Positions 25,753 through 49,336 of a stretch of 64,000 bases of DNA are shown here, piece after piece. Position numbers and translations under genes: made by a program. This stretch comes from Sediminitomix flava (GTDB lineage: Bacteria; Bacteroidota; Bacteroidia; Cytophagales; Flammeovirgaceae). The DNA lies in the NCBI RefSeq assembly GCF_003149185.1, contig NZ_QGDO01000005.1, forward strand, positions 124,001 through 188,000, read 5' to 3'. Every line of letters begins with the position of its first letter. Positions within the stretch are counted from its first letter, which is position 1. The notes under the pieces were generated by a model. That model was not told where the DNA came from and ran no database searches. It saw nothing but the letters and a program-made list of their open reading frames with translations.

Positions 25753-27048
25753 ATGAATAGTTTTATTGAGGATTTCATTCTGTTAGGTGATGCCAATGTG
25801 AGGTGGGTATTATTAGCGGTATTGCTTATGTCTAGTAGTACATCTATTGTTGGTTGTTTATCTTTTCTGAGAAAAAGAGCGCTAATAGGAGATGCTGTTT
25901 CACATGCTATTTTGCCTGGTATCTGTTTATCTTTTCTCCTAACACAATCAAAAGATCCGGTTTACTTGATGGTAGGAGCTGTTATTACAGGAAGTTTGAG
26001 TATTTGGTGTATTGACTTTATTGTTTCTCACACAAAGCTTAAACCCGATACAGCTTTAGCACTTATCTTGTCCGTTTTTTATGGAATCGGAATTGTTTTG
26101 CTTACCCATATTCAAACGCTTGGAATGGCAGGGCAATCTGGTCTTGATAAATTTCTGTTCGGTAAAGCAGCCTCAATGGTCGCTAGTGATGTTCGACTGT
26201 TTAGTACTACCTCTCTAATTATTATTCTGACAGTTGTATTTGGTTTTTCAGCATTTAGAATGGTCATTTTTGATAGGGGTTATGCTACATCAGTGGGTCT
26301 ACCAGTAAAGAAAATAGAACTATTGATTACGTTTTTGACAGTGCTTGCTATTGCGACAGGTATTCAAGCCATTGGTGTGGTTTTAATGTCAGCGATGCTT
26401 ATAACACCAGCAGCAGCAGCAAGATATTGGACGCATTCTCTTTCTAAAATGATGATTATCGCTGTCATTATTGCAGGGATTTCAGCTTACTTGGGTACGT
26501 TAGTCTCTTATATTCAACCTAAAATGCCTACAGGACCTTGGGTTGTAGTTTTCTTAACCTTTCTAGCATTTATCTCTATTATTTTTGGCGCAAAGAGAGG
26601 ACGTCTTTTTTCTGTGTACAGAAGACTACAAAATAAAAGACGTATTCAAGATGAAAATGTATTGAAGAGTTTTTATCATCTGAAAGAGTCTAAAGAAGAA
26701 TTTAGAAGTTTCACAGCCTCAGAGTTAGTTGAAAAAACAGGATATACACGCCTTAAGGTCAAAGCATCGATCAATAGACTTGTTGCAAGCAATTTGGTGA
26801 AACGTGATAAACACTTTATCAGCGTGACGGAGACAGGTATTGAAGAATCGAAACGTTTAGTGAGGATTCATAGATTGTGGGAATTGTACATTACGAAATA
26901 TATGAACCTTCCTGCAGATCATGTACACGACGATGCTGAAGCAATAGAACATATCATTACACCAGAGTTGGAGCAAGCTTTGATCAAAGAGCTAGGACGT
27001 CCTGAAGTAGACCCTCACAATACGCCAATCCCATATAAAGCACAATAA
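25753..27048 (+). CDS. Metal ABC permease fused to a DtxR/MntR-like repressor domain
   Basis: A 431-residue fusion. Residues 1-280 are an ABC-3 type permease with about eight membrane helices (KRALIGDAVSHAILPGI and IGVVLMSAMLITPAAAARYW are family signatures). Residues about 298-425 are soluble and resemble a DtxR/MntR regulator: a winged helix (FTASELVEKTGYTRLKVKAS, then VTETGIEESKRLV) and the metal-binding/dimerisation segment HRLWELYITKYM...VHDDAEAIEH. His373, Glu396, Glu399 and His400 line up with B. subtilis MntR His77, Glu99, Glu102 and His103. The first-helix ligands of MntR are not obviously kept. Chlamydia YtgCR has the same architecture and releases a repressor by cleavage. Second permease gene follows after five bases. 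Confidence 0.9.
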   Translation: MNSFIEDFILLGDANVRWVLLAVLLMSSSTSIVGCLSFLRKRALIGDAVSHAILPGICLSFLLTQSKDPVYLMVGAVITGSLSIWCIDFIVSHTKLKPDTALALILSVFYGIGIVLLTHIQTLGMAGQSGLDKFLFGKAASMVASDVRLFSTTSLIIILTVVFGFSAFRMVIFDRGYATSVGLPVKKIELLITFLTVLAIATGIQAIGVVLMSAMLITPAAAARYWTHSLSKMMIIAVIIAGISAYLGTLVSYIQPKMPTGPWVVVFLTFLAFISIIFGAKRGRLFSVYRRLQNKRRIQDENVLKSFYHLKESKEEFRSFTASELVEKTGYTRLKVKASINRLVASNLVKRDKHFISVTETGIEESKRLVRIHRLWELYITKYMNLPADHVHDDAEAIEHIITPELEQALIKELGRPEVDPHNTPIPYKAQ

Positions 27049-27053
27049 ACATT

Positions 27054-27956
27054 ATGATAGTATTTGATGAATTTTGGATAATGCTCACTGGAGCTTTGGT
27101 TGCTATTAGTTGCAGTTTATTAGGGTGTTTTTTAGTACTTCGTAAAGTAGTCATGGTAGGCGATGCTATTTCTCATGCAGTTTTACCGGGTATTGTGATC
27201 GCATATTTCTTCTCTCAAAGTCTAGATTCGCTTCCAATGCTTATTGGTGCAGCAGCCTTTGGTATGATAGCTACTGTCATAATTGAGATGCTGAGCAAAA
27301 AGAATAAGATGCAGGAAGATGCAGCTATTGGAGTTACTTTTACTTTCCTGTTTGCCCTAGGTGTTATCTTGATAACCTCATTTGCTGATAAAGTAGATTT
27401 AGACCAAGAATGTGTGCTTTATGGAGAAATAGCATATGTACCTTTGGATACACTAACTCTTTTTGGTGGAGTTGAATTAGGACCTGTGCAAGTATGGATT
27501 TTAGGGTTTAATCTTTTACTAGTTTTGGCATTTGTGATTTTAGGCTATACTCCTCTAAAAATGTCTAGTTTCGACCCTATATTTTGTACTTCTGTAGGGA
27601 TCTCGACTAGCTTTTGGCATTATGCACTAATGAGTGGAGTCTCAATGACTACTGTTTTTTCATTTGAGGCAGTAGGAGCGATATTAGTTGTTGCATTTTT
27701 AGTAGGGCCACCTTCTATCGCTTATTTAATATCAAAGGATTTGAAGAAAATGCTATGGTTAGCTGCTTTATTTGGAGTCTTATCTTCAGTATTTGGTTAT
27801 CTGTTAGCTGTTTTACTCAATGCGTCTATTGCAGGAAGTATGGTTGTGATGATTGGAATTTTCTTTATTATAGTTTTATCAATTCAATTAATTAGAAAAC
27901 AATTGAAAGATAAACGGAATCAAACTGAGATTTCACAAATGAATTTTGAAAGCTAG
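27054..27956 (+). CDS. Metal ABC transporter permease (TroD type)
   Basis: A 300-residue ABC-3 family inner-membrane permease with about eight helices. RKVVMVGDAISHAVLPGIV and VGAILVVAFLVGPPSIAYL are the family hallmarks. It pairs with the permease half of the preceding gene to form the transport channel, but it has no C-terminal regulatory domain. It ends the operon before the hairpin at 27985-28014. Confidence 0.93.
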   Translation: MIVFDEFWIMLTGALVAISCSLLGCFLVLRKVVMVGDAISHAVLPGIVIAYFFSQSLDSLPMLIGAAAFGMIATVIIEMLSKKNKMQEDAAIGVTFTFLFALGVILITSFADKVDLDQECVLYGEIAYVPLDTLTLFGGVELGPVQVWILGFNLLLVLAFVILGYTPLKMSSFDPIFCTSVGISTSFWHYALMSGVSMTTVFSFEAVGAILVVAFLVGPPSIAYLISKDLKKMLWLAALFGVLSSVFGYLLAVLLNASIAGSMVVMIGIFFIIVLSIQLIRKQLKDKRNQTEISQMNFES

Positions 27957-28468
27957 TACTTTAATTCATCTTAATATATGAAATAGGCACTCTTGAAAAA
28001 GGGTGCTTTTTTTATATCCAATGATTAATTTTTATGGTAATAGTGTTCACTTTAAACCAATTTAAATGAATACAATTGGACGGATATTAATCTATTGTTG
28101 TAAATTTTAATACTTGAATTCTACTTCTAGTTTTTACAATGTTAGGTCTTTATTATTTTTTGGAGAGTATAAAATTAAGTGCAATTTGACTTCTTGATTG
28201 TGGTTTTAAATGATTGGTATACAGTGTTTAGAGGTTGTTTTAGTGACGATTTCTTGTCCTGTAGTTTGATTTAGAAATCGTAGAATTATAAATAATGTAT
28301 TTGTTTAATTAGTGAGTAATATTCTGTTTTGTAAAGTGATAGTTTTTGAATGTTCGTCTAAATAGATGGTGTGTTAATAAAAATACTTACATATCGTTTT
28401 AAAATATAGAATAATGTTTGGATGTTAAAAAATCTATCATTTATATTTACGGAAACAAAATACATCAA
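27957..28468. other. Long AT-rich gap upstream of the ilv leader
   Basis: About 510 bases. It holds the terminator of the metal-transport operon at its left edge; otherwise it is AT-rich with no open frame. The ilv promoter must lie in its right part. A TAATGTTTG near 28412-28420 resembles a -7 element, with one extra base and no matching -33, so I do not call it. Confidence 0.5.
27985..28014 (+). terminator. Rho-independent terminator of the metal-transport operon
   Basis: Stem GCACTCTT / AAGGGTGC (one wobble) with a short loop and a following T-run, 28 bases after the last permease stop codon. Confidence 0.8.
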
Positions 28469-28531
28469 ATGGTAAAAAATATTCAAAATATCGTCCTTAT
28501 TATTGTCATTTTGCTAGTCATTTCTCCGTAG
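28469..28531 (+). CDS. Branched-chain amino acid leader peptide (ilv attenuator)
   Basis: A 20-codon reading frame, ATG to TAG, upstream of ilvE. Thirteen of its 20 residues are Ile, Val or Leu, and residues 8-18 are an unbroken run IVLIIVILLVI. Such a peptide is the hallmark of leader-peptide attenuation, as in the E. coli ilvGMEDA leader. Its stop codon lies directly before the antiterminator strand (28532-28543), so a ribosome that finishes the peptide would cover that strand. Six Ile, four Val and three Leu codons predict sensitivity to all three amino acids. Too short to be found by ordinary gene calling; translation is inferred from context. Confidence 0.85.
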   Translation: MVKNIQNIVLIIVILLVISP

Positions 28532-28600
28532 GAGTGATATTGGATACTTATTACCTAAAGAAAAAGCCATTATCACTCAATAACTGATAATGGCTTTTTT
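28487..28600 (+). promoter_or_regulatory. Transcription attenuator of the ilvEDBN operon
   Basis: Four segments can form mutually exclusive stems. Segment 1 (28487-28496, AATATCGTCC, inside the leader codons) can pair with segment 2 (28531-28541). Segment 2 (28532-28543, GAGTGATATTGG) pairs with segment 3 (28567-28578, CCATTATCACTC) at 11 of 12 positions: the antiterminator. Segment 3 also pairs with segment 4 in the terminator. Stalling on Ile/Val/Leu codons would mask segment 1, free segment 2, form 2:3 and permit read-through. Complete translation covers segment 2, so 3:4 forms and transcription stops. All pairings are visible in the sequence; the regulatory behaviour is inferred from the enteric model. 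Confidence 0.85.
28561..28600 (+). terminator. Attenuator terminator upstream of ilvE
   Basis: A perfect 15-bp stem (28561-28575 with 28585-28599), nine-base loop CTCAATAAC, ending in six T residues. It stands 40 bases before the ilvE start and 30 bases after the leader-peptide stop. It must be bypassed for operon expression, hence its role as attenuator. Confidence 0.92.
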
Positions 28601-28639
28601 AATACACAAATTATATCGAACCTTAATCGCGCCACACAT

Positions 28640-29533
28640 ATGAAATATTTTGATCAAAACACGATTGTATTCTTCAATGGAGAATATATAAAAGCATCTC
28701 AAGCAAAGTCCGATTTGTTTGCGCAGTCTTTGCACTATGGTAATGCTGTTTTCGATGCTTTTAGAGCTTATGGAACTTCATTAGGTCCACATATTTTCAA
28801 AGCTGAAGAACACTTGGCTCGCTTTAGTGAGACAGCGCAGAAAATGCATCATACAATGCCATATTCTGTTAGAGAGCTTATCAAAATATCATATGAGTTG
28901 TTGGAGCGCAATAATTTTACTGATGCATATATCAGACCTTTGATCTACTCAGGTATGAATATGGAGCTTTCCCCAGATACAAAGCATCATTTATTTATTG
29001 CTGCATGGAAGTGGGAAAAGTATTTAGGTAAAGATTTACTTGATATCAAAATATCAGATTATAAAAGACCTTCTCCTTTAGCATGTGATGTAGAAGCAAA
29101 GGTTTCTGGTAATTATGCAAATTCCGTTGCAGCTGTAGCAGAAGCTCAGAATGCAGGTTTCGATGATGCATTATTACTAGATGTAGAAGGAAAAGTAGCT
29201 GAAGGTACAGGTGCTAACTTCTTTTTTGAGAAAGATGGAATACTTTTCACACCTAAAAAAGGGCATATTTTCCCTGGTATCACGAGGTCTGTTGTTCTAA
29301 ATCTTTGCAAACAGATGGGACAAGAGGTCGTAGAAGGTGTTTTCTTTCCAGAGGACCTTAAAGATTTAGATGGTGCATTCTTTACGGGTACAGCTGCTCA
29401 AATAACTGGTATAGCATCAATAGATGGTCATAAAATGAACAAAGACTGGGAAGATACAATTGGTTATCAGGTCTTTGAAAAGTATGGTCATATTGTCACA
29501 CAAAACGAATACGATTCTTATTCAATCATATAA
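28640..29533 (+). CDS. ilvE: Branched-chain amino acid aminotransferase
   Basis: A 297-residue class-IV PLP aminotransferase that interconverts Val, Leu and Ile with their 2-oxo acids. It has QSLHYGNAVFDAFRAYGT near the N-terminus; EAKVSGNYANSVAAVAEAQN with Lys154 as the PLP lysine; and DGAFFTGTAAQITGIASIDG, the phosphate-binding region. The YIRPLIYSG stretch is typical of the branched-chain enzymes rather than D-amino acid or aminodeoxychorismate members. First gene of the ilv operon, directly behind the attenuator. It is followed by ilvD after 46 bases. Confidence 0.93.
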   Translation: MKYFDQNTIVFFNGEYIKASQAKSDLFAQSLHYGNAVFDAFRAYGTSLGPHIFKAEEHLARFSETAQKMHHTMPYSVRELIKISYELLERNNFTDAYIRPLIYSGMNMELSPDTKHHLFIAAWKWEKYLGKDLLDIKISDYKRPSPLACDVEAKVSGNYANSVAAVAEAQNAGFDDALLLDVEGKVAEGTGANFFFEKDGILFTPKKGHIFPGITRSVVLNLCKQMGQEVVEGVFFPEDLKDLDGAFFTGTAAQITGIASIDGHKMNKDWEDTIGYQVFEKYGHIVTQNEYDSYSII

Positions 29534-29579: not shown

Positions 29580-31262
29580 ATGGAACACAAACTGAACAAA
29601 TACAGCCAAACTGTAACACAAGATGTTACACAACCAGCAGCTCAAGCAATGTTATATGCTGTAGGTCTTACAGAGGAAGATATGTCAAAACCTCTAATCG
29701 GTATTGCAAGTACTGGTTATGAAGGTAACTCATGTAATATGCACCTCAATGAGTTGGCTACTTATGTGAAAAAAGGAACAAAAGAGGCTGATTTAGTAGG
29801 TCTTATATTCAATACGATTGGAATTAGTGATGGTATTACCAATGGTACTACTGGTATGAGATACTCATTGGTTTCAAGAGAAGTAATTGCTGACTCTATT
29901 GAAAGTGTTGTAGCTGGTCACTTTTACGATGGTGTTGTATCTGTTGTAGGTTGTGATAAGAATATGCCAGGAGCAATGATCGCAATGAGTCGTTTAGATC
30001 GTCCTTCAATCCTTGTTTACGGAGGTACAATTGCTTCGGGTTGTCATAAGAAAAAGAAATTAAATATTGTCTCAGCTTTTGAAGCACTAGGTGAAAAGTT
30101 TGCTGGAACAATCAGTGAAGAAGATTTTAAAGGAGTAATTAAGAATGCTATTCCTGGAGCTGGAGCATGTGGCGGTATGTATACGGCTAACACAATGGCT
30201 TCCGCAATTGAGGCATTAGGAATGAGCTTACCTTATAGTGCTTCTAATCCTGCAATTGATGACACCAAACAAAAAGAGTGTGTAGCAGCAGGTATTGCCC
30301 TTAGAAAACTACTAGAAAAAGATATTAAGCCTTCAGATATCATGACTCGTAAAGCATTTGAGAATGCTTTGAGAATTATCATTGTATTAGGAGGGTCAAC
30401 GAATGCAGTACTTCACATGATTGCTATGGCAGATGCTATGGGAGTTGAGTTAAGTCTTGATGATTTCCAAAGACTTTCAGACGAAACGCCTTTACTAGCT
30501 GACTTAAAGCCAAGTGGTAAGTACTTAATGGAAGATGTTCATGAGATTGGTGGTATTCCAGCAATTATGAAGCGTTTGCTTAATGATGGTCTTCTACATG
30601 GAGATTGTATGACAGTGACGGGACAAACAATTGCCGAAAACTTATCGGATATAGATCCTCTAGGTGAAGATCAAGATTTACTTCGTCCACTTACAGATCC
30701 TATCAAAGCGACTGGTCACTTGCAAATTTTGTATGGTAACCTTGCCCCAGAAGGCTCAGTTGCAAAAATTACAGGTAAAGAAGGTGAAGTATTTGAAGGT
30801 ACTGCAAAAGTCTTTGATAAAGAATTTGATGCAATCAAAGGAATTCAAGATGGAACAGTTGAGAAGGGAAATGTAGTTGTAATCAGATATGAAGGTCCTA
30901 AAGGTGGCCCAGGTATGCCAGAAATGTTGAAACCAACTTCGGCAATCATGGGTGCTGGACTAGGAAAAGATGTTGCCTTGATTACTGATGGTAGATTCTC
31001 AGGGGGGTCTCATGGTTTTGTAGTTGGACACGTTTCGCCAGAAGCACAAGTAGGAGGACCGATTGCTCTTATAAAAGATGGTGACCCTATCCGAATTGAT
31101 GCGGTAAATAATACAATAGATGTCTTAATTGATGAGGCTGAATTAGCTGCTCGTAAAGAAACTTGGGTAGCTCCAAATCCAATATATAAAAGAGGTGTTT
31201 TAGCCAAATATTCAAAATTAGTTTCTTCAGCTGCAGAAGGCTGTGTAACAGACAAATTCTAA
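29580..31262 (+). CDS. ilvD: Dihydroxy-acid dehydratase
   Basis: A 560-residue iron-sulfur enzyme that dehydrates 2,3-dihydroxy-3-methylbutanoate and its ethyl homologue in valine/isoleucine synthesis. Conserved cluster cysteines are in [23 protein letters not shown] and [36 protein letters not shown] near the C-terminus is the family signature 2. Full length, third reaction of the pathway. Only 12 bases separate it from ilvB. Confidence 0.97.
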
Positions 31263-31274
31263 AATTTTGCTACT

Positions 31275-33032
31275 ATGACCACAACAAATGAATTTTTTAA
31301 TGAAGTAGCTTTTGCAGAGCCAATAGCTCCAAAAAGAAAAGTAACAGGTTCTGAAGCAGTAATTTTATCATTGCTTGCTGAAGGTGTGGACACCATGTTT
31401 GGGTATCCGGGTGGTGCAATTATGCCTGTTTATGATGCTTTGTACAATTACCAAGATCAATTAAAGCATATCTTGGTCAGACATGAGCAAGGAGCCGTCC
31501 ATGCAGCACAAGGGTTTGCACGTGTTCGTAATGAAGTTGGAGTTTGTATGGCAACTTCTGGACCTGGAGCAACAAATCTAATTACAGGTATTGCAGATGC
31601 CATGATTGATTCAACCCCTTTGGTTTGTATTACAGGGCAAGTAGCTGAGCATTTATTAGGTACTGATGCATTCCAAGAAACTGACATTTTGGGTATTTCT
31701 ATGCCTGTTACAAAATGGAATTATCAAGTAACGAAAGCGGCTGATATACCGGGTGCAATTGCAAAAGCATTTTATTTAGCGAAAAGTGGTAGACCAGGAC
31801 CTGTAGTAATTGATATTACTAAAAATGCTCAATTTGAAGAAGTTGATTTTGAGTATAAAAAATGTACAGGTGTTCGTAGTTACAGACCTGCCAAAAAACC
31901 TGAATATACTTCATTAGAAGACGCAGCTAAGTTGATCAATGAGGCTAAGAAACCTTATTTGTTGGCTGGTCATGGAGTTCTTCTTTCTGGGGCGCAAGAA
32001 TTATTAAAAGAGTTTATCAATAAAACAGATATACCTGTTGCCAGTACATTGTTAGGTTTGTCTGCATTTGACGCTAGTCACCCTAATTATGTTGGTATGC
32101 TTGGTATGCACGGTAATTATGCACCAAACGTAAAAACAAACGAATGTGATTTGTTGATTGGTTTGGGAATGCGATTTGATGACCGTGTAACAGGGGATGT
32201 TTCCAAATACGCAAAGCAAGCCAAGGTTATTCATATTGAAATCGATCCTGCTGAAATTGATAAAATCATAAAAGCAGATGTACCAATTATAGCTGATGCT
32301 TCTAGAGCTTTGGAAGGTTTAATTCCTTTGGTAGAAAAACGATCGCATTCAGAGTGGATTGCTGAGTTCAGAGAAGGAGATAGACTTGAAAAAGAAAAAG
32401 TATTAGATGGAGAATTCTCAGCTAATACAGAGAAAGTAAAGATGGCCGAAGTCGTTAATAAACTTTCTGAAATGACAGAAGGTAAGGCTATTGTAGTAAC
32501 AGATGTAGGTCAGCATCAGATGATCGGTTCTCGTTATTATAAGTTTACTGAGACAGATAGTAATGTAACTTCTGGAGGTCTAGGGACTATGGGGTTTGCA
32601 TTGCCAGCAGCAATAGGTGCTAAGCTTGGTCAGATGAAGAGAGAAGTTGTGGCAATCATTGGAGACGGTGGTTTCCAAATGACACCTCAAGAGTTAGGGA
32701 CGATTATGCAATATGATATCCCTGTAAAAATCTTGATTCTGAATAATAGCTTTTTAGGTATGGTTCGTCAGTGGCAGCAGATGTTCTTTGAGAAAAGATA
32801 TTCTTTCACTGAGATGTCAAATCCAGACTTTATCAAATTGGCTGATAGTTATTCTATTCCAGCGGAAAGAGTAACAGAAAGAGAGCAATTAGAAGAAGGA
32901 TTGCAGAAAATGATTGATGCGAAAGGTTCATTCCTTTTAGAAGTTGTTGTAGAAAAGGAAACAAATGTTTTCCCTATGATTCCTACAGGAGCTTCAGTAT
33001 CTGATGTTTTACTTGAAGCCCCAAAAGCCTAA
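31275..33032 (+). CDS. ilvB: Acetolactate synthase large (catalytic) subunit
   Basis: A 585-residue thiamine-diphosphate enzyme that condenses pyruvate with pyruvate or 2-oxobutanoate. GYPGGAIMPVYDAL and VRHEQGAVHAAQGFAR, with the catalytic glutamate, mark the PYR domain. IGDGGFQMTPQELGTI with LNNSFLGMVRQWQQMFF marks the GDG...NN diphosphate/metal motif, and MVRQWQ is specific for acetohydroxyacid synthases. The TAA stop shares its last A with the ilvN start (TAATG), so translation is probably coupled. Confidence 0.97.
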   Translation: MTTTNEFFNEVAFAEPIAPKRKVTGSEAVILSLLAEGVDTMFGYPGGAIMPVYDALYNYQDQLKHILVRHEQGAVHAAQGFARVRNEVGVCMATSGPGATNLITGIADAMIDSTPLVCITGQVAEHLLGTDAFQETDILGISMPVTKWNYQVTKAADIPGAIAKAFYLAKSGRPGPVVIDITKNAQFEEVDFEYKKCTGVRSYRPAKKPEYTSLEDAAKLINEAKKPYLLAGHGVLLSGAQELLKEFINKTDIPVASTLLGLSAFDASHPNYVGMLGMHGNYAPNVKTNECDLLIGLGMRFDDRVTGDVSKYAKQAKVIHIEIDPAEIDKIIKADVPIIADASRALEGLIPLVEKRSHSEWIAEFREGDRLEKEKVLDGEFSANTEKVKMAEVVNKLSEMTEGKAIVVTDVGQHQMIGSRYYKFTETDSNVTSGGLGTMGFALPAAIGAKLGQMKREVVAIIGDGGFQMTPQELGTIMQYDIPVKILILNNSFLGMVRQWQQMFFEKRYSFTEMSNPDFIKLADSYSIPAERVTEREQLEEGLQKMIDAKGSFLLEVVVEKETNVFPMIPTGASVSDVLLEAPKA

Positions 33033-33568
33033 TGAAAGAGAAATTTACTTTGTCAATCTATACTGAGAATACAGTAGGTTTGACTTCACGTATCACAAAT
33101 ATTTTCTCCAGAAGAAAAACGAATATTGAAAGCTTGACTACTTCTGCTTCAGAGCTAGAACATGTTCATAAATTCACAGTCGTGTTTTTTGAGACAGAAG
33201 AAGGTGCTGAAAAAATCATGAAGCAAGTTGAGCGTCAGATTGATGTGATTAAAGCATTTTCTTATAGAGATCAAGAAATTATTCATCAAGAGATAGCGCT
33301 ATATAAAGTTGCTTTTGAAAGTCTTTCTCAAGAAGAAGAAGTTGAAAAAATTGTTAGAAGACACCATGCCCGAATCTTATCTGCTACACCTGAATACGTA
33401 GTGATTGAGAAAACTGGACATGAATGGGAAACACACGAGTTGTATGAAGACCTAAAGCCAATTGGTTTGATGCAATTCGCTCGATCAGGTAGAGTATCCA
33501 TCTCTAAGGAACGCCAAGATGTAAGTCCTTTATTACAGGAGTTTAGCGAATTTCAAGAGAGTTTATAA
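33032..33568 (+). CDS. ilvN: Acetolactate synthase small (regulatory) subunit
   Basis: A 178-residue protein whose N-terminal ACT domain (FTLSIYTENTVGLTSRITNI, RRKTNIESLTTS) confers feedback inhibition, typically by valine, on IlvB. The C-terminal half (VEKIVRRHHARILSATPEYV, VIEKTG) matches the second small-subunit domain. Overlaps the ilvB stop by one base. Last gene of the attenuated operon, before the terminator at 33591. The ilvC reductoisomerase gene, often next in such operons, is not here. Confidence 0.93.
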   Translation: MKEKFTLSIYTENTVGLTSRITNIFSRRKTNIESLTTSASELEHVHKFTVVFFETEEGAEKIMKQVERQIDVIKAFSYRDQEIIHQEIALYKVAFESLSQEEEVEKIVRRHHARILSATPEYVVIEKTGHEWETHELYEDLKPIGLMQFARSGRVSISKERQDVSPLLQEFSEFQESL

Positions 33569-33651: not shown

Positions 33652-34926
33652 ATGGAAGTAGCAGCCGACACCCAATTAGCACAAGTAGAGAACATACTAA
33701 AAGCAAATATAAAGCTCAAAGAAGTGGTTAATAGAACTCCTTTGATGCGAAATATGAACCTCTCTGAAAAGCATGATGCAAATATTTTGTTGAAGCGAGA
33801 AGATCTTCAAGTTGTTCGATCTTATAAAATCAGAGGAGCGTACAACAAAATTTCTTCTTTAACTGAAGACGAAAAACAAAAAGGAATTGTATGCGCTAGT
33901 GCAGGAAACCATGCACAAGGGGTGGCTTATGCATGTAAAACTTTAGGAATTAGAGGTGTGATTTTTATGCCTGCACCTACACCTTCTCAGAAAGTAGAAC
34001 AAGTAAATATGTTTGGGAAGGAGTTTGTAGAAGTTGTGTTGGTTGGAGATACCTTCGATGATTCTTTCAAAGCGGCTAAGAAGTATCAAGAAGAACAAGG
34101 CTCGATCTTTATTCATCCATTCGATGATGATAAAGTAATAGAAGGCCAAGGTACAGTAGGCTTAGAAATCTTAGAAGATACACAAGATCCTATCGATTAC
34201 TTAATTTTACCAATTGGTGGTGGTGGATTAAGTGCTGGTGTAGGTAGCTATTTCAAACAAATATCTCCAAATACAAAAATTATAGGAGTAGAGCCTGCTG
34301 GAGCACCTTCTATGAGAGAGGCGATAGCAAAAGGACAGCCTATTGAATTAGCTAAAATTGATAAGTTTGTAGATGGTGCTGCGGTTCAAAAAATAGGTTC
34401 TCGTACTTTCGAAATAGGGCGTCAAGTACTAGATGAAGTTATGCTAGTCCCTGAAGGAAAGATATGTACTACTATCTTAAAGCTTTATAATAAAGATGCT
34501 ATTGTTGTTGAGCCAGCTGGAGCTTTATCTATTGCAGCCTTAGACATAGTGGCTGAAAAATACGATTTAAAAGGAAAGAATGTCGTATGTGTGGTGAGTG
34601 GTAGTAATAATGATATTACCCGTATGGAAGAGATCAAAGAAAGATCACTTCTTTATGAAGGACTCAAGCATTATTTCATCATACGATTCCCACAGAGAGC
34701 TGGTGCTTTAAGAGATTTCTTGAATAATGTATTAGGCCCTAAAGATGATATTGTACACTTTGAGTACAGTAAAAAGATTAATAGGGAGAAAGGACCTGCA
34801 GTGGTGGGTATCGAACTTGAAGATGCTTCAGATTATGAGCAACTTTTAGGACGTATGGATAAAGAAAACATTGTCTATGAGAAGCTAAATGAAAATGCAG
34901 ATTTATTTAACTTCTTAATTTCATAA
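33652..34926 (+). CDS. ilvA: Threonine dehydratase, biosynthetic
   Basis: A 424-residue PLP enzyme that deaminates threonine to 2-oxobutanoate, the first step to isoleucine. Lys59 in VVRSYKIRGAYN is the PLP lysine. The glycine loop is LPIGGGGLSAGVGSYF. A single C-terminal ACT-like regulatory domain (HYFIIRFPQRAGALRDFLNN, FEYSKKINREKGPAVVGIEL) makes it the short biosynthetic type, as in Bacillus subtilis, rather than the two-domain E. coli type. It completes the local ilv set. A strong terminator follows. Confidence 0.95.
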   Translation: MEVAADTQLAQVENILKANIKLKEVVNRTPLMRNMNLSEKHDANILLKREDLQVVRSYKIRGAYNKISSLTEDEKQKGIVCASAGNHAQGVAYACKTLGIRGVIFMPAPTPSQKVEQVNMFGKEFVEVVLVGDTFDDSFKAAKKYQEEQGSIFIHPFDDDKVIEGQGTVGLEILEDTQDPIDYLILPIGGGGLSAGVGSYFKQISPNTKIIGVEPAGAPSMREAIAKGQPIELAKIDKFVDGAAVQKIGSRTFEIGRQVLDEVMLVPEGKICTTILKLYNKDAIVVEPAGALSIAALDIVAEKYDLKGKNVVCVVSGSNNDITRMEEIKERSLLYEGLKHYFIIRFPQRAGALRDFLNNVLGPKDDIVHFEYSKKINREKGPAVVGIELEDASDYEQLLGRMDKENIVYEKLNENADLFNFLIS

Positions 34927-48893: not shown

Positions 48894-49336
48894 GGGTAAT
48901 TCTGTTTTTGGTGATCTCTTACTTCAAAGGTATAAAAGCGAAATGTAAAATAAAAGCGAAATTTCGCTAATGTAATAAAATTCGCTAAATAATATAGTTT
49001 CGTTATAGTATTTTACATACATAAAACCCCTTTAAATCGTACTTTTGAGCAGTTGATGATAGTATTTGACGAAGACATAATTTTTTAGCGAAAATTTTAA
49101 AAAATGTCGCATTACGTTTAGATGCTTTTGACGATATTTTCTTTTGTTAGGAGATTTTGTAGAAGTGATGCTTTATTTTTGTGATAAGCGATGGGGTTCG
49201 CTTTAAATGCCAACTGGCTTGGCTGATGACTCCTACTTTAGTTATTTTTACTTTTTTATGACCTTTTGTTGTTCTCAACTTAAGGCTGTGCGTTGTATTT
49301 AAAAATTTATATATAAACTAAAGTTGTGTTGTTATT
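48894..49336. other. Divergent promoter region of aceBA and the CLC gene
   Basis: 443 bases without an open frame. Its left 100 bases carry the palindromic GCGAAA array described separately. Further GCGAAA-type motifs occur at 49087 (AGCGAAAA) and as a spaced inverted pair AAGCGA/TCGCTT at 49186-49203. Promoters of both operons must be here; none matched the Bacteroidota consensus convincingly. Confidence 0.6.
48937..48986. promoter_or_regulatory. Candidate aceBA operator array
   Basis: The core 48955-48968 is a perfect 14-base palindrome, AGCGAAATTTCGCT. A 13-base direct repeat ATAAAAGCGAAAT occurs at 48932 and 48950 (18 apart). TTCGCTAA occurs at 48963 and 48981, again 18 apart. The result is four half sites arranged symmetrically around 48961. 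Their position, 44-93 bases upstream of aceB, fits an operator. The binding protein is unknown; RamB/PrpR-type (ScfR) acyl-CoA-responsive regulators control aceA/aceB in other phyla and are one candidate. Confidence 0.6.

Follow-up and report, generated by a model that had tools for sequence, protein, structure and literature searches.

The attenuators of the enteric ilv and leu operons consist of a leader rich in the regulated amino acids, with biased control codons, and of alternative antiterminator and terminator hairpins upstream of a biosynthetic operon; the Bacteroid-trp RNA likewise has a leader-attenuator role. An earlier comparative survey, that of Lopatovskaya in 2010, may include Bacteroidota. 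The enteric ilvGMEDA, ilvBN and leu operons are described as subject to ribosome-mediated transcription attenuation (PMC1183508), and an attenuator with a leader and hairpins precedes the ilv genes of Corynebacterium glutamicum ilvBNC (PMC11857589). For Bacteroidota, strong clues that leader peptides attenuate amino-acid operons have been reported in Flavobacterium psychrophilum, upstream of the operons concerned (PMC9723704), ORFs reminiscent of leader peptides occur in Bacteroides 5′ UTRs (PMC7366714), and the Bacteroid-trp RNA motif (RF01692), a structured RNA of Bacteroidetes, is tied to trp by its name (PMC2864571).

The stretch analysed here (the window, 64,000 nt) belongs to the genome of Sediminitomix flava (6.6 Mb in 39 contigs), a member of the family that includes Flammeovirga. 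In this window, a ribosome-mediated transcription attenuator of the trp/ilv/leu type very probably controls ilvEDBNA, as judged from sequence. All the anatomical features of the enteric attenuators listed above recur at this locus, which is likened to them by anatomy, not by homology. Unlike them, it has no obvious Shine-Dalgarno start, its segment 1 is only a candidate, and its Val control codon is GTC with only tRNA-Val(UAC) found. The case of F. psychrophilum shares with it the phylum, the proposed mechanism and amino-acid biosynthesis operons, but the account, in the portions available, is given in general terms without ilv leader anatomy or codon analysis (PMC9723704). The actinobacterial ilvBNC attenuator of C. 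glutamicum is similar in its leader and hairpins before ilv, a likeness drawn from its description, whereas RF01692 serves a different operon and the window leader has no Rfam match. Among the papers listed, in several cases the best 8-25 matches, in a search that left most subscription journals outside, none deals with ilv leaders of Cytophagales or their codon choice. The kind of attenuator is classical and has previously been reported in a member of the Bacteroidota; the codon pattern is the new part and is worth following. The features of the locus are as follows.

27980-28013, + strand: intrinsic terminator that follows the metal ABC-transporter genes upstream of ilv (found as a hairpin with a 15-bp stem, one mismatch and a T-tract)
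28417-28449, + strand: promoter-like motif, TTTG (28417-28420), 21 nt, TATATTTA (28442-28449), with spacing conserved in the family
28469-28531, + strand: leader ORF, 20 codons and stop codon TAG, reading MVKNIQNIVLIIVILLVISP-stop (from sequence, with related leaders in relatives)
28488-28497, + strand: candidate segment 1, pairing with 28530-28540 in the MFE structure of the region
28490-28522, + strand: eleven control codons, ATC GTC CTT ATT ATT GTC ATT TTG CTA GTC ATT (from sequence)
28532-28543, + strand: segment 2, the 5′ strand of the antiterminator, directly after the leader stop (11/12 pairs with 28567-28578)
28561-28600, + strand: intrinsic terminator, stem 28561-28575/28585-28599 (15/15 pairs), 9-nt loop 28576-28584, T-tract to 28600
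28567-28578, + strand: segment 3, the 3′ strand of the antiterminator, of which 28567-28575 are common to the terminator (from pairing)
28640-29533, + strand: ilvE, branched-chain aminotransferase (TIGR01122, 255.8 bits; cut-off 245.55)
29580-31262, + strand: ilvD, dihydroxy-acid dehydratase (TIGR00110, 741.6 bits; cut-off 618.15)
31275-33032, + strand: ilvB, acetolactate synthase large subunit (TIGR00118, 737.4 bits; cut-off 538.35)
33032-33568, + strand: ilvN, acetolactate synthase small subunit (TIGR00119, 95.6 bits; cut-off 56.9)
33652-34926, + strand: ilvA, threonine ammonia-lyase (TIGR02079, 652.2 bits; cut-off 440.55)

The original prediction, made from the sequence of the window, had claimed a 20-codon leader with eleven consecutive Ile/Val/Leu codons, and this leader is present. 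Its run, IVLIIVILLVI, is the sole Ile/Leu/Val run of at least 11 residues in the six frames of the window, so that a short ORF ending at a stop codon at 28529-28531 clusters codons for the amino acids made by ilvEDBNA. Each of the five ilv genes scores above the curated cut-off for one or more NCBIfam models; the operon had been given as ilvEDBN, which is right for these four genes and incomplete, as ilvA comes after them as a fifth gene with the same orientation. Upstream, the terminator at 27980-28013 separates the metal ABC-transporter genes from ilv. A search for another leader of this kind at ilvC and at a leuA-like gene elsewhere in the S. flava genome found none; the leuA-like gene scores 564.9 bits, below the leuA cut-off of 598.7, and the one weak leader match was rejected because it is the C terminus of an ORF that lies about 1.7 kb upstream of leuA.

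The promoter-like motif, which we take to be of the Bacteroidota -33/-7 type, ends 19 nt before the leader start in the window. Counting the window, 11 of the 16 members of the family have TTTG, 21 nt, TATATTT(G/A) and then 19 nt to the leader start; three of the other five have TATATTTG at different distances and two have neither box. Transcription would start near 28455. An in-frame ORF that begins earlier, at 28418 (MDVKKS...), was discounted as the leader because it starts within the conserved promoter-like motif, ahead of the point where the transcript probably begins. Bacteroidota start translation without Shine-Dalgarno sites, and none is obvious in the sequence before the leader ATG. 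Position -3 of this ATG is C, not the A that is favoured at start codons (PMC6847099), and, given both features, initiation at the leader may be weak.

The predicted hairpins were borne out, the perfect 15-bp terminator with all its pairs and its T-tract, and the antiterminator with 11 of its 12. The terminator sits about 40 nt before ilvE, between the leader and the first structural gene, and termination is predicted there. Folding of the leader region, which the original prediction had proposed as a check, gave for 28460-28606 a z of -4.4 against dinucleotide shuffles, far better than the shuffles (0/200 as good), with z -5.5 for segments 2-3 alone (28532-28584) and z -7.8 for the terminator alone (-19.0 kcal/mol). 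The window antiterminator has an energy of -16.4 kcal/mol (p 0.003 against shuffles). Antiterminator and terminator pairings are mutually exclusive. Segments 2-3 before segment 4 exists reach -14.1 kcal/mol and the terminator without segment 2 reaches -19.0 kcal/mol, and when everything from segment 2 onward is folded together the terminator is favoured (-21.7), so that the antiterminator must form first, during transcription.

Segment 1 fared otherwise. A full 1-2-3-4 attenuator with segment 1 inside the leader codons had been proposed, and segments 2, 3 and 4 stand, but the candidate segment 1, although in the MFE structure, forms a duplex in the window that is no more stable than those obtained with permuted codons (p 0.25), and the leader with segment 2 alone has a z of only -1.6. 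Segment 1 reaches p <=0.05 in three of the 16 family members, L071 (0.03) and L014 and L015 (0.002 or less).

In the proposed mechanism, transcription would begin near 28455 and the 20-codon leader would be translated at once. With Ile-, Val- and Leu-tRNAs charged, the ribosome would reach the stop codon (28529-28531) and cover segment 2, upon which the terminator (28561-28599) would form and RNA polymerase would stop near 28600. With any of the three charged tRNAs short, the ribosome would stall on the control codons upstream of segment 2, and the free segment 2 would pair with segment 3, so that no terminator would form and the operon would be read. The ribosome footprint is taken as E. coli-like; when the stop codon occupies the A site, the ribosome would then reach about 28541 and hide most of segment 2, and a ribosome stalled at the last control codon (28520-28522) would reach about 28532 and leave segment 2 free. 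Judged by its position, segment 2 would thus be masked by a ribosome that has arrived at the stop codon. If these attenuators work as drawn, Bacteroidota ribosomes must trail RNA polymerase closely enough to control termination.

A leader with a terminator occurs at 16 of the 17 sampled ilvD loci of the family, 15 found by script and one (L070; leader VLKKVQNIALVIIDILIVVLHRWQ and hairpin), missed by the script, read by eye; the 17th locus, L081, has no leader with terminator in the 2.6 kb upstream of ilvD. Relatives carry related leaders, for example MLKKTQNIVLIIINTIVVLLKGR, and QN-I-x-L is common to the leaders of the window, L070 and the Flammeovirga-type members, whereas other family leaders differ. 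The second GTCGTCCT motif of relatives is absent from the window, and no match was found in the S. flava genome to a pattern in which six NNT triplets follow GTCGTCCT.

The family alignment (A1) comprises 14 sequences out of 16, since L005 and L073 nearly duplicate L004 and L072 and are omitted; L070 is out of register in the 3′ arm. In the terminator core 96.8% of 154 cells are paired, against <=61% in slid controls, and 14 cells are changed on both sides, against 4.9 in shuffles; in the antiterminator core 85.7% of 112 cells are paired, with six both-side-changed cells against 2.1 in shuffles. The number of pairs with both-side change is not above chance for either stem (terminator, 3 against 2.7, reached by 353/500 shuffles; antiterminator, 2 against 1.3, reached by 176/500). 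The antiterminator slid by +3 has as high a covariation score (0.293 against 0.250) but only 64% of its cells paired, and its high score is ascribed to those family members in which the alignment displaces segment 2. In the unaligned sequences, the best segment 2 starts 6 to 1 nt before the first post-stop base in 15/15 family attenuators, and the antiterminator energy has p <=0.045 in 15/15 when the search is allowed to begin 6 nt ahead of the stop codon's last base; with a wider spacer, 10/15 have p <=0.05 and the rest 0.053-0.086. The comparison of relatives for covariation that the original prediction had called for therefore finds leader, terminator and antiterminator kept in position and stems that covary, which upholds the reading of this region as an attenuator before the ilv genes.

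Beyond the family, classical leader-peptide attenuators appear to precede ilv operons in many Bacteroidota families. A BCAA-rich leader with a terminator (ORF of 10-50 codons, >=7 I/L/V in ten residues, terminator within 65 nt) was found at 63 of 169 Bacteroidota ilvD places, compared with 1/169 reverse strands and 1/507 shuffles, and 106/169 places gave no script match. The 169 places represent 168 genomes (G035 has two), with 44 lower-ranked and four further places outside the sample, and 63 is a lower bound for the sample because just 1,500 nt upstream were examined for the places represented by L001-L069. The script is fallible: it misses true cases (L070) and some matches may be false, as it also scores a C-terminal piece of a permease gene in the window (27840-27956), and the L106 match may be alike. 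Of 67 attenuators, 48 have an antiterminator with p <=0.05, whereas among 38 terminators that follow ORFs of >=150 codons only one does, so that 19/67 miss p 0.05 overall with the wider spacer; with the narrow spacer the pairing is significant in 36/67 against 2/18 ordinary terminators. Segment 2 lies within the last leader codons in many members of other families. At four loci (L037, L055, L089, L239), two leader-terminator units, each with its own I/V/L leader, stand in tandem before the ilv genes.

The control codons are strongly biased. All three Val codons of the window run are GTC, and the 16 family members have 12 distinct leaders, in which GTC makes up 35/52 Val codons, against 10.3% in long window ORFs. 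Leader control regions together contain 81 GTC among 134 Val codons, where about 10 are expected; in ten-residue control regions the counts are 27/40 within the family (11 distinct regions; 3.4 expected) and 54/94 outside it (46 distinct regions; 6.8 expected). GTC exceeds expectation in 14/15 families, although these codon counts come from related sequences and are not independent events. Outside the family, ATT (165 against 104.8 expected) and CTA (19 against 5.6) are raised, whereas ATA (8 against 39.9) and GTA (10 against 32.7) are reduced. Base composition is an unlikely cause of the bias because the favoured third base is C for Val and T for Ile. Nor does hydrophobicity of the sequence account for the GTC enrichment: in 147 I/L/V-rich windows of ordinary ORFs, which served as the control, codons are near expectation and GTC occurs 39 times against 39.1 expected.

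The same bias bears on whether the ORF could instead encode a functional small hydrophobic membrane peptide followed by a simple partial terminator. The leader peptide is indeed hydrophobic, but its run is purely I, V and L, with no F, A, M or G, the leaders of relatives stay rich in I/V/L and vary in order and length, with interruptions by T, N, A, R or D, the synonymous codons are strongly biased, unlike those of ordinary hydrophobic stretches, and the RNA at or after the stop codon pairs with the terminator; of the alternatives considered, this one is the least credible. The terminator/antiterminator part would look identical if a tRNA, ligand or protein switched the hairpins, as in a T-box, riboswitch or protein-binding attenuator, with the ORF incidental. 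Against this stand the absence of any Rfam family at gathering score over the leader, the identity of the 10 matches at E <=10 over 28300-28700 (none is a T-box or an amino-acid leader), the conservation of an ORF composed mostly of the operon's amino acids, and the position of the antiterminator strand at or just past the ORF stop codon in relatives, and such a switch is very unlikely, if the least improbable of the alternatives.

A constitutive attenuator or decayed element, in which the parts are present and the amino-acid response has been lost, would accord with the weak segment 1 pairing of the window and with its missing second GTCGTCCT motif. Its antiterminator, however, is stronger than those of 11/14 other family attenuators, and every Val codon of the run is GTC, which makes such a loss highly improbable, ranking between the two preceding explanations.

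For an amino-acid-responsive attenuator, the preference for GTC raises the question of how this codon is read. In the tRNA stretches found in the S. flava genome, ARAGORN identified nine tRNA-Val(UAC) genes and no tRNA-Val(GAC), and none of six genome matches to a GAC anticodon-arm and T-arm pattern is a tRNA by ARAGORN. This tRNA list is partial (150/591 candidates scored; no Ala or Ile(GAT) tRNA appeared), and the absence of tRNA-Val(GAC) rests mainly on pattern searches, which a gene with unusual arms would escape. UAC pattern matches occur in 14/14 genomes, and ARAGORN confirms tRNA-Val(UAC) in 13; in G260, the loci retrieved did not include the probable position of the gene. ARAGORN-confirmed tRNA-Val(GAC) is present in 4/14 genomes (G001, G180, G255, G378), and none was found by pattern in the S. 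flava genome and 9/13 other genomes sampled. In 13 of the 14 genomes, GTC forms 11/17 leader-ORF Val codons in the four with tRNA-Val(GAC) and 16/24 in nine without it, one of which (G052) has no leader GTC. In this small sample GTC is thus frequent both with and without a detected tRNA-Val(GAC).

GTC read by tRNA-Val(UAC) makes the worst wobble pair of that tRNA. In E. coli, leader codon bias has been explained by selective charging of isoacceptors (PMC1183508); where a single tRNA reads all Val codons, selective charging alone cannot favour GTC. Judging from gene content, slow reading of GTC by U34 could explain the choice, and, given that only tRNA-Val(UAC) was found, the poorest-read Val codon may have been selected to make stalling more sensitive. 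It is possible, though somewhat less likely than not, that BCAA control codons of Bacteroidota are selected for slow decoding, not for isoacceptor charging, and that Val is sensed via GTC. If so, a further principle would have to be added to the selective-charging theory, which was developed for E. coli; the leaders offer a natural test of control-codon choice. The S. flava genome also carries tandem tRNA arrays, each for one amino acid (L309, L308, L314, L313): nine Val(UAC), seven Phe interspersed with four Leu(UAG), seven Thr and six Lys.

Several further observations concern the genes of the window. The ilvD of Psychromonas/Colwellia (Gammaproteobacteria; L131, L136, L138) is 70-71% identical to the window ilvD, as close as many Bacteroidota sequences, and transfer is possible. 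The metal ABC-transporter permease at 25753-27045 joins a permease and a regulator-like domain in one chain, its C-terminal third (residues 301-429) matching MntR/DtxR-type metal regulators (NF047407, E 9e-13, below the model cut-off). A fluoride riboswitch lies at 49178-49242 (Rfam RF01734, 51.4 bits).
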